Part shown: positions 57,815-60,876 of the stretch, in pieces
Layout: the number at the start of each line of letters is the position of its first letter
Position numbering within the stretch: the stretch's first letter is position 1
Assembly: GCF_014899185.1 (NCBI RefSeq)
Contig: NZ_CP045201.1
Location: forward strand, 3,387,501 to 3,451,500
DNA from: Pseudooceanicola spongiae
GTDB lineage: Bacteria; Pseudomonadota; Alphaproteobacteria; Rhodobacterales; Rhodobacteraceae
Direction: 5' to 3'
DNA length: 64,000 nt
Program-made: the position numbers and the translations under genes
The notes under the pieces: model-generated
Seen by the model: the letters and a program-made list of their open reading frames with translations, nothing else
Told to the model about the DNA's origin: nothing
Database searches by the model: none

Positions 57815-58474
57815 ATGTCGAGCGAATATAGCCCCCCGGACGTGCCCCTGACCGTGATCCACGAGGACCACGAACTGCTGATCGTGGACAAGCCTGCCGG
57901 GCTGCTCTCGGTCCCCGGCAAGGGCGATCATCTGGCGGATTGCCTGCTGAGCCGCATTCAGTCGGCCTTTCCCAACGCCCTGCTGGTGCACCGTCTGGAC
58001 CGCGACACCAGCGGCGTGATGGTCTTTGCCCTGTCGCGCCATGCGCAGCGTCACCTGGGGTTGCAGTTTGAGCATCGCCGGATCAAAAAGACTTACTATG
58101 CAAGGCTTTATGGCAAGTTGGAGCCTAAGGCCGGCACCGTCGATCTGCCGATTATCGTTGATTGGGAGAACCGGCCGCTGCAAAAGATCGACCATGAAAA
58201 CGGTCGCGCGGCGGTCACCGACTGGAAGGTCAAAAGCTATGGCGCGGCGGGGCCTGAGGGCGAAACCCGCGTGCGGCTGTTCCCCCATACCGGGCGCTCG
58301 CACCAGCTGCGGGTGCATATGCTGGCGATGGGCCATCCGATCCTGGGCGACCCGTTCTATGCCAGCGGCGCGGCGCGCGACCACCCTCGTCTGATGCTGC
58401 ACTCCGAAGAGATCCGGCTGCTGCATCCCGACGGCGGCGCGGGGCAAAAATTCCGCTCCAAATCGCCGTTCTGA
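57815..58474 (+). CDS. RluA-family pseudouridine synthase
   Basis: The 219-residue synthase has the catalytic motif HRLDRDTSGVMVFAL (Asp near residue 56), ARLYGKLEP and the C-terminal HTGRSHQLRVHM with the conserved Arg. It makes pseudouridine in rRNA or tRNA; which RNA is unknown. ATG 57815 is 39 bases after the GFA gene. Confidence 0.93.
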   Translation: MSSEYSPPDVPLTVIHEDHELLIVDKPAGLLSVPGKGDHLADCLLSRIQSAFPNALLVHRLDRDTSGVMVFALSRHAQRHLGLQFEHRRIKKTYYARLYGKLEPKAGTVDLPIIVDWENRPLQKIDHENGRAAVTDWKVKSYGAAGPEGETRVRLFPHTGRSHQLRVHMLAMGHPILGDPFYASGAARDHPRLMLHSEEIRLLHPDGGAGQKFRSKSPF

Positions 58475-59527: not shown

Positions 59528-60556
59528 TCACTTGCGCAGGATACGGTCCGTCAGGTTTTGCCGTCCGGGCAGGATCTGGCCCAGCTCGACCGACAGGGCC
59601 GCATCGGCGCGGCGCATCTCTTCCAGCTCGTCCAGACGGTTTGCAGCGACCAGCGACAGCACATCCAGCCGCACCGAGCCACTGGCGCTGCGCGGCAGAC
59701 AGACGACCGGCTGCACCTTTTCCGACAGGGACTCGGGCACAAGCGCGCGCAGCTCCTCCTGGGAAAGATCGGTTTCGGCAAAGGTGTAAAGGCCGACGCC
59801 CTTGCCGGGCAGAGCGAAATTGGTCAGCACATGCGTGGTGATACGGGGGTGCGCGCTGAGGATCCGGGTGATCTCGGCACCGTCGCTCTCGATCCGGTCC
59901 TCTGTGCCCTCACCGTCGGACCAGTCGAGCAGCCGCCGGGTGATGAAGTTATAGAGCAACTTGCCGGTGGCCATCCAGATGCGGGTCGGGACGGCCTTGT
60001 GATTGAGCATGGTGCGCTCGGCAGGGGTAAGCAGATCCGGCGCATAGGCCCGCTTCTGCTTCAGCAGATGGCGCAGATCCTCGCGCGCCATGGTGCGGAA
60101 CAGGGCGCCGCGCCGTCGATGCACCGAGGCAAGCTGAAAATCGATGACAGCAGCGCCACCGTCTGGCCGGCAAAGCCAGTTCTGCGGCTTGGCAATGTCG
60201 TTGTGTGTGACGCCGCGCCGGCGCATCTCGCGCAGCAGCCGCTTGGCATCGCGATAGAAGAGGGCTTCGGAGGGGCGTGCCAGATGCAGTGGCGTGCCCT
60301 CTGACCATTCGCGCAAAATCCCGGTGCGGTCATAGCGTAACAATTCCGGACAGCCTTCGATGCCCCGCACAGCGCGCAGACCCCGCACTTCGCGCCGGGC
60401 CAGGAACCAGGCGATCGGGCGCGACCAAAGCGGCAAGGCATCGAGCTTGCGCAGCGCCAGTCGCCGTTCGGGCGAACGTGCGAGATGCCCCGAGATGGTC
60501 TCGGAAAAGGCGTCGCGCTTGAGCACCGTGACGGGGATGAAGTCATTTTCTGACAA
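59528..60556 (-). CDS. Kinase-like domain fused to ANL (AMP-forming ligase) C-terminal subdomain
   Basis: A 342-residue protein. The N-terminal part (about 1-200) looks like a lipopolysaccharide-type kinase: catalytic loop GVTHNDIAKPQNWL and metal motif VIDFQLAS (DFG reads DFQ). The C-terminal part (about 225-330) looks like the C-terminal subdomain of acyl-adenylating enzymes: an A8-like RIESDGAEITRIL and VVCLPRSASGSVRLDVL. The usual A10 lysine (GK) is replaced by Ser. The start is a TTG at 60556 because no ATG is present before the conserved region. No adjacent partner genes. Function unknown. Confidence 0.75.
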   Translation of the reverse strand: MSENDFIPVTVLKRDAFSETISGHLARSPERRLALRKLDALPLWSRPIAWFLARREVRGLRAVRGIEGCPELLRYDRTGILREWSEGTPLHLARPSEALFYRDAKRLLREMRRRGVTHNDIAKPQNWLCRPDGGAAVIDFQLASVHRRRGALFRTMAREDLRHLLKQKRAYAPDLLTPAERTMLNHKAVPTRIWMATGKLLYNFITRRLLDWSDGEGTEDRIESDGAEITRILSAHPRITTHVLTNFALPGKGVGLYTFAETDLSQEELRALVPESLSEKVQPVVCLPRSASGSVRLDVLSLVAANRLDELEEMRRADAALSVELGQILPGRQNLTDRILRK

Positions 60557-60623
60557 GGGCAGGCCCGGGATTTGTGATCATTGGCGCATCTAGCAGGGCG
60601 GAGCGGGTTTCGGCAAGCCTCGC

Positions 60624-60745
60624 AGGGGGGCTCTGCCCCCGCCGCGCGTGCCGCGCGCCTCCCCCGAAGTATTTCAGGCAAGATGACAGGGGAGCCGCGC
60701 GCTTTATCATCTTGCCAAAAATACTTCCGCCGGAGGCATCCGAAA
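60624..60745. repeat. Triple-hairpin repeat with partial inverted second copy
   Basis: The first copy (60624-60689) is nearly identical to 2141-2207, differing in the third hairpin (TTTCAGGC for TTTCGGGC). A partial inverted copy (60705-60740) reads ATCATCTTGCC and ATACTTCCGCCGGAGGC. It lies between the kinase-like gene and the aldehyde dehydrogenase terminator. Confidence 0.7.
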
Positions 60746-60770
60746 GCTGGCCATGCGCGAAGGCGGAATG

Positions 60771-60800
60771 AAAACAGCCCCGCCGTTGAGGGCGGGGCTG
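60771..60800 (-). terminator. Terminator of the aldehyde dehydrogenase gene
   Basis: CAGCCCCGCC, GTTGAG, GGCGGGGCTG form a 10-bp stem. On the minus strand TTTT follows, so it ends the aldehyde dehydrogenase transcript. The stretch 60801-60876 upstream of it holds nothing else that I can identify. Confidence 0.85.
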
Positions 60801-60876
60801 ACTGTCAGGCCGGATCCTTGATCTTGCCGGGGGCCGGAGACGAGGCCAACTCGGGATCGAGGAACAGGGTCCGCTT

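Follow-up and report, generated by a model that had tools for sequence, protein, structure and literature searches.

The gene described here belongs to a catalogued protein family. NCBIfam PRK09188 (NF006620, 365 positions) describes the same two-domain protein over its full length, under a family name that specifies no substrate and makes no mention of an Acs-type domain. PRK12274 (NF008910, 219 positions), named 'serine/threonine protein kinase', corresponds to the kinase half only; the catalytic residues are common to both, but PRK12274 proteins have no C-terminal domain, unlike the fusion. The C-terminal domain of Acs, within the ANL superfamily, is homologous in sequence to the C-terminal domain of the fusion up to the tail. 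Compared with Acs, however, the fusion has no adenylation domain, its hinge stretch is missing, its A10 lysine is not conserved, and N306 and D337-R338 are new near-invariant residues. In the available portions of two reports, the Acs C-domain is a surface bound by acetyltransferases (GNAT) (PMC11910552; PMC4053389).

Two further kinase groups invite comparison. The Kdo/WaaP LPS kinases (PF06293; KdkA, PRK01723) are likewise atypical kinases. ArkI (COG2112) is archaeal and, according to the accessible part of its description, makes the tRNA 2'-phosphate at U47, has an altered DFG motif (DFE) and a C-lobe with positive charge, and came to notice as the product of a putative kinase gene sharing an operon with that of a tRNA enzyme (PMC9095486). 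It resembles the fusion in being a small basic kinase with an altered DFG and, for some lineages of the fusion, in having a tRNA-enzyme neighbour, but it carries HGQ in place of HxD (same part of PMC9095486), whereas the fusion family keeps H-N-D.

The window, a 64,000-nucleotide stretch of the Pseudooceanicola spongiae genome, encodes such a fusion on its minus strand, and the coordinates and frame first assigned to it proved correct. Its features are as follows.

59528..60556, minus strand: whole gene, fusion of a kinase and an Acs-type C-domain, 342 aa, TTG start (from the ORF and NCBIfam PRK09188)
59918..60556, minus strand: kinase-fold domain, residues 1-213 (from AlphaFold models, structural matches and PRK12274)
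60179..60205, minus strand: catalytic loop HNDIAKPQN, residues 118-126 (from sequence and conservation)
60134..60142, minus strand: metal-binding motif DFQ, residues 139-141 (from sequence; invariant in 156 aligned proteins)
59531..59917, minus strand: C-terminal domain, residues 214-342, Acs C-domain homologue (profile alignment from residue 227)
59669..59680, minus strand: A10-equivalent GSVR, residues 293-296, with S294 at the catalytic lysine site (from profile alignment and conservation)
59543..59557, minus strand: tail motif NLTDR, residues 334-338, with N334, D337 and R338 nearly invariant in two large groups

PRK09188 covers residues 4-340 of the window protein (E 3.8e-124, model positions 18-361 of 365). 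The score of 414.4 bits does not reach the curated cut-off of 490 bits, which two members from a second alphaproteobacterial family (f159), L140 and L162, exceed with 626 and 516 bits. Because the match extends over the whole protein, the fusion already has a catalogue entry, named 'serine/threonine protein kinase'. Among 80 relatives (the best 80 of 416), the start codon closest to the start of the alignment is ATG in 66, GTG in 8 and TTG in 6. The kinase model PRK12274 matches residues 5-218 at E 4.2e-55, and the Pfam APH model (PF01636) reaches 21.5 bits, under its gathering score of 23.2.

The sequence-only reading knew of no described function for this arrangement. As regards function this stands, since none was found described for the family in the open-licence literature; the arrangement itself, however, is a widespread catalogued family, PRK09188. 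In the same literature no paper mentioning PRK09188 or PRK12274 was found, and searches with combinations of terms gave no paper on a kinase/Acs-type fusion protein by title, and none containing trmFO among the matches listed. In the available part of a 2005 survey of prokaryotic kinase architectures, AMP-binding, acetyl-CoA, acyl-CoA synthetase and ligase do not occur (PMC1262709).

The kinase half

AlphaFold models of the whole protein gave a mean pLDDT of 79.7 with 14 sequences and of 86.7 with 48, while a pTM of 0.61 leaves the relative placement of the two domains unsettled. With the first model, VIA-align returned CurKC (Z 15.6, rmsd 3.1, 181 residues) and RIO2 (Z 15.4, rmsd 3.8, 174 residues), and Foldseek on the second model agreed with a kinase fold. 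In both searches, residues 1 to about 190 match class III lanthipeptide-synthetase kinases, RIO kinases, PknB and many others. The N-terminal half had initially been called kinase-like from its motifs, with the lack of a kinase fold named as grounds for giving the idea up; models and structural matches instead give it the bilobal fold of the protein-kinase-like superfamily.

Both motifs, HNDIAKPQN (118-126) and DFQ (139-141), are present as first described, and conservation around them is strict. We aligned 156 proteins, consisting of 81 Rhodobacteraceae-type sequences (window included), 70 from f159, one fusion from a third family (G122) and four kinase-only relatives. R36, E56, H118, N119, D120, K123, D139, F140 and Q141 do not differ in any of the 156, and N126 is kept in 155. 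R162, H163, K166, K168, K199 and Y202 are also invariant, the four kinase-only relatives included. Read from the model, E56 is the helix-C Glu and R36 the strand-3 basic residue, an Arg and not a Lys; the catalytic set of D120, N126, D139, E56 and R36 is complete. DFQ was considered as a sign of a dead kinase, which its invariance (156/156) excludes; on this conservation it is best described as a family trait and not as decay.

The kinase half is also strongly basic, with a calculated pI of 11.1 in the window and of 10.3-11.7 in seven relatives; that of the C-domain is 4.9 (window). From the invariant residues and this basicity, we read the kinase half as a probably active atypical kinase with an anionic substrate.

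The same half could belong to a protein Ser/Thr kinase that its Acs-type C-domain steers to an acyl-CoA synthetase, or to the acetyltransferase recognising domains of this kind, a possible but doubtful reading. For such steering speaks the binding of GNAT acetyltransferases to the Acs C-domain, as given in the available portions of the two reports (PMC11910552; PMC4053389). On the kinase side, Pfam Pkinase matches weakly (window E 0.021; 36/48 relatives at E up to 1), PknB is among the structural neighbours, and StkP provides the top PDB sequence matches for this half (E 4.9e-5, profile of 48 relatives). The NCBI name 'serine/threonine protein kinase', however, is no test of a protein substrate, and the altered DFG together with weak APH, Kdo and Bud32 matches are traits of atypical kinases, a group with many members that phosphorylate small or non-protein substrates. 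Moreover, no acetyltransferase or synthetase gene was noticed among the conserved neighbours, most of which were named by eye.

Similarity to LPS kinases is weak. Pfam Kdo is matched by 20 of 48 relatives when E values up to 1 are allowed, the lowest being 0.001, and KdkA (PRK01723) matches the window protein at E 0.042 and one kinase-only relative at E 1.9e-5. PF06293 gave no match to the window protein at E 10, and a Pfam Kdo scan of the window genome found two places, neither of them the fusion gene. For ArkI, no sequence or fold match was found among the matches listed in a PDB profile search and by VIA-align.

An Acs-type C-terminal domain

When a profile of 48 relatives, one of them Acs-like (L017), was searched against the whole PDB, the top match was the Acs C-domain chain 4u5y_D (E 8.8e-8, positions 228-322); the next ANL entry was a malonyl-CoA synthetase / benzoate-CoA ligase chimera (E 0.066). 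hhalign aligned the 81 Rhodobacteraceae-type proteins with 27 alphaproteobacterial Acs C-domains at a probability of 97.7, using a profile built without the most Acs-like member; the 108 aligned columns run from residue 227 into the tail. The comparison is partly circular, as the 27 Acs sequences were drawn from loci found by the NF006620 profile. In the reverse direction, a search with the Acs profile brought 70 of the 81 members past the inclusion threshold, the window protein among them with E 1e-4, and missed 11. Of the 48 relatives, 7 match PF13193 at an E of 1 or lower, with a best value of 1.1e-19, and the last third of the G122 homologue (residues 242-360) matches acetate--CoA ligase at 4.6e-26. 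Pfam AMP-binding_C was not reached by the window sequence alone, the C-domain by itself had no Pfam match at E 0.01, and an AMP-binding_C scan of the window genome found 14 places, none of them the fusion gene. Among ANL models, L140 and L162 match best the acyl-CoA synthetase PRK09088 (E 9e-7 and 6.5e-5), L140 matching acetate--CoA ligase more weakly (E 5.6e-4). By sequence, Acs is the likeliest source of the domain, though given these two proteins it is not a certain one.

An ANL-type C-domain had been proposed from the letters alone, and this is now sharpened to an Acs-like one. The resemblance comes from sequence profiles and from the order of predicted elements: in the AlphaFold model the C-terminal half runs helix, strand, strand, helix, strand, helices, which we take to fit an ANL C-domain. 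In fold searches with the whole protein, the matches listed by Foldseek and VIA were all kinases, with no ANL C-domain. The N-terminal adenylation domain is absent from the window protein, as first noted, and the kinase domain stands in its place.

GSVR does occupy the A10 site, with S294 in place of the catalytic lysine. The missing lysine thus holds for the window but not uniformly, since a lysine is found in 19 of 151 fusion proteins (3/81 Rhodobacteraceae-type, 16/70 f159), and loss of the lysine was rejected as a defining trait of the fusion. The Rhodobacteraceae-type proteins have S, A, T, R, K and others at this site, those of f159 K, E, A, S, R, N, D and others, and G122 has A. Positions around it are held (P288 151/151, R289 149/151, G293 148/151, R296 141/151), and further residues of the domain are nearly invariant, namely N306 (151/151), R332 (150/151), N334 (149/151), D337 (150/151) and R338 (149/151). 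The last four make up a tail motif, R-x-N-x-x-D-R, nearly invariant in the two large groups; the G122 fusion keeps R332 and has lost N306, N334 and DR.

The proposed A8-like hinge, RIESDGAEI, largely did not survive comparison with Acs. When 9 fusion proteins were aligned with 6 Acs, the Acs stretch before and through the hinge proved to be missing from the fusions, and the hinge motif GHRxGT[AS]E, found in 27/27 Acs, is mostly gone. R221, kept in 147 of 151 fusion proteins, seems to be the sole remnant of the A8 motif.

The C-terminal half diverges faster than the kinase half. It is nevertheless under strong purifying selection relative to its closest homologue, the 93% identical protein of Pseudooceanicola sediminis (L046): Nei-Gojobori dN/dS comes to 0.049 in the kinase half and 0.078 in the C-terminal half. 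Two other close pairs, divided at the same length and with few changes, gave 0.11 and 0.14, and 0.01 and 0.22. The faster divergence, together with the lost catalytic lysine and hinge, might suggest a decaying fusion remnant without function, which is scarcely credible given the dN/dS of 0.078, the new near-invariant residues and the presence of both halves in 69 of 70 aligned f159 proteins; debris was rejected on that dN/dS value. A free A10 site, near-invariant new positions and the dN/dS together indicate a repurposed module, and the rarity of the lysine (19/151), the absent adenylation domain and the missing hinge stretch suggest that it is non-adenylating. The initial view of a recycled ligase lid kept as a module is therefore strengthened.

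Another use of the domain would be as a sensor of acetyl-CoA status, in which Pat-like enzymes bind or acetylate it and thereby switch the kinase. The top PDB match is suggestive in this respect, since entry 4u5y is reportedly a complex of the Acs C-domain with a Pat GNAT domain, and 16 of 70 f159 proteins have a lysine at the target site. That lysine is missing, however, in 132 of 151 fusion proteins, so acetylation there is not general and binding without acetylation is what remains; we regard a sensor of this kind as improbable.

Distribution and gene neighbourhoods

A pattern scan of genome contigs gave 448 matches, 416 of which encoded a relative, and the best 80 of the 416 were kept. These are mostly from Roseovarius, Pseudooceanicola and other Rhodobacteraceae, one (L123) being from a Phyllobacteriaceae MAG. 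Matches occur in 12 of 21 genomes of the same genus (window genome not counted), in 15 of 198 genomes of the window's own family (window genome included, one split) and in f159 in 91 of 149 genomes and 32 of 47 sampled genera. Seventy of the 91 matching f159 genomes were aligned, several others being cut by contig ends, and 69 of these 70 proteins have both halves. A fusion unique to the window is thereby ruled out, as relatives with the same arrangement are spread across genus, family and f159, with neighbours that differ by lineage. In a 289-genome draw of the class there were two full-length fusions, that of the window and that of G122, found in one genome of its family. Two families that lie outside the class, f184 and f205, contain kinase-only relatives, L129-L132 among them being 220-221 aa long.

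Trees were computed on a chosen subset (16/81 Rhodobacteraceae-type, 21/70 f159, G122, 4 kinase-only and 10/27 Acs). The G122 fusion groups with the kinase-only proteins in the kinase tree (98/87) and with Acs in the C-domain tree (100/100). Judged by these sequences, one old fusion with later loss of the C-domain and two separate fusions would fit equally well.

For the Rhodobacteraceae-type proteins, neighbours were compared in the best 80 of 416 loci, in flanks of up to 7 kb, some shorter, and named from one example each. Upstream lie genes for an aldehyde dehydrogenase (same strand, 74/80), a GT25 glycosyltransferase (39/80) and a GT11 glycosyltransferase (33/80, in 32/80 within 200 nt on the same strand); downstream, a convergent RNA pseudouridylate synthase gene is found in 57/80. 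In the window, the aldehyde dehydrogenase gene lies 320 nt upstream of the kinase gene, and a PseudoU_synth_2 RNA pseudouridylate synthase gene is at 57815-58474 with another gene between the two. No glycosyltransferase gene stands beside the kinase gene in the window.

The neighbourhood in f159 is of another kind. In 66 of 70 loci (duplicates and other families left out) the gene immediately upstream, on the same strand, is trmFO, identified from one example by NCBIfam; the spacing ranges from overlapping to about 100 nt as measured from the alignment end. The four loci without it are L216, whose contig ends about 760 bases upstream, L221, L232 and L234. Among more divergent f159 loci, 36 of 39 were used, being those in which the kinase gene was picked (kinase identities down to 44%), and a trmFO-like gene family is upstream in 32 of the 36. 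trmFO is the most constant same-strand neighbour found.

Since TrmFO methylates U54 of tRNA, this linkage raises the possibility of an RNA kinase that phosphorylates tRNA or another RNA alongside TrmFO, like the archaeal ArkI. Persistence of the linkage at kinase identities down to 44% (36 loci) and the basic kinase half are in keeping with it. So is the appearance among the weak NCBIfam matches of two relatives of Bud32, which is part of the tRNA-modifying KEOPS complex. ArkI itself, in the available part of its description, shares the altered DFG, the positive C-lobe and an operon with a tRNA enzyme (PMC9095486). The constancy of trmFO has another explanation, however, as opposite-strand genes downstream are conserved as well, in 26, 23 and 21 of the 36 loci (by eye, secF-like in 26 and squalene/phytoene synthase-like in 23), so that the f159 region is syntenic, which may by itself account for part of the trmFO link. 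Outside f159 the link was not seen: the window genome has its trmFO about 2 Mb from the fusion gene, tblastn found none in the flanks of the 80 Rhodobacteraceae-type loci (best 80 of 416), and no trmFO match was obtained in G685, G459 and G689, three genomes that encode kinase-only relatives. ArkI is also absent from the PDB matches listed (best 60 of 90) and has HGQ where the PRK09188-type fusions have HND. An RNA kinase is on balance rather unlikely, yet it is a serious rival for the substrate.

Proposed function

Judged from the sequences, the homology of both halves, the invariant kinase active site, the lost A10 constraint and the continued selection on the C-domain can be considered established. 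Beyond these, we propose that the protein would combine a small, active eukaryotic-like kinase (ELK) with an Acs-type C-terminal domain that does not adenylate and has been put to another use. Its strongly basic kinase half would phosphorylate a non-protein anionic substrate, either an envelope glycan or lipid, or RNA; in Rhodobacteraceae an envelope glycan or lipid would be most likely. The C-domain would present a partner protein with a surface for docking or regulation, as the Acs C-domain does for the acetyltransferases that bind it, and the R-x-N-x-x-D-R tail may be part of that docking surface or fold back on the kinase. Docking is the natural guess, because the Acs C-domain is the surface that acetyltransferases bind. 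For this reading as a whole, an active ELK whose substrate is anionic and not a protein (in Rhodobacteraceae an envelope glycan or lipid) with a C-domain for docking or regulation, we tentatively estimate a probability of about 0.42.

That the kinase acts on a non-protein anionic substrate is what we consider most likely, and neighbours differ by lineage in the substrate they favour. Glycosyltransferases, and the lpxB and PAP2 genes at the G122 locus (lpxB divergent on one side, PAP2 on the other), favour a lipid or sugar, as does a DedA/PAP2 gene divergent from the kinase-only relative L156, while trmFO points to RNA; for the window's lineage we favour an envelope glycan or lipid kinase. Against an envelope substrate count the lack of a PF06293 match, the window gene without a glycosyltransferase gene beside it, and trmFO as the constant neighbour in f159. 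A basic kinase half would suit RNA no less than LPS. Against descent from Acs in every member count L140 and L162, which are closer to PRK09088; against the reading as a whole counts G122, which is without N306 and the DR tail. A combination of the rivals, in which an RNA kinase co-transcribed with TrmFO in one family docks an acetyltransferase or acetyl-CoA-linked partner through its Acs-derived domain, so that acetyl-CoA status sets an internal RNA phosphate, is highly improbable.

The arrangement is of interest as an ANL lid domain that has been freed from its synthetase, without catalytic lysine and hinge, and kept under selection on a kinase. Many Rhodobacteraceae carry the family, and 32 of 47 sampled f159 genera have matches; it bears a generic name only, and its trmFO and glycosyltransferase neighbourhoods provide two concrete, opposed hypotheses for the substrate.

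Several loci show individual features. In G030 the homologue is split into a kinase with part of the C-domain (L014, 311 aa) and the remainder (L015, 96 aa) in another frame; either the gene appears to be frameshifted or the sequence is wrong at that place. The kinase-only gene L156 (G685) is divergent to a DedA/PAP2/LssY-type gene (Pfam), as by eye is L157 (G399), and L156 overlaps a DUF2867 gene. In the window, the gap of about 320 nt between the aldehyde dehydrogenase and kinase genes (60557-60876) contains, by eye, a G+C-rich inverted repeat near 60780, which may end the upstream transcript. Finally, two f159 proteins of about 475 aa, L233 (G884) and L234 (G871), have two tandem Acs-type C-domains behind one kinase domain, which is consistent with a binding module.
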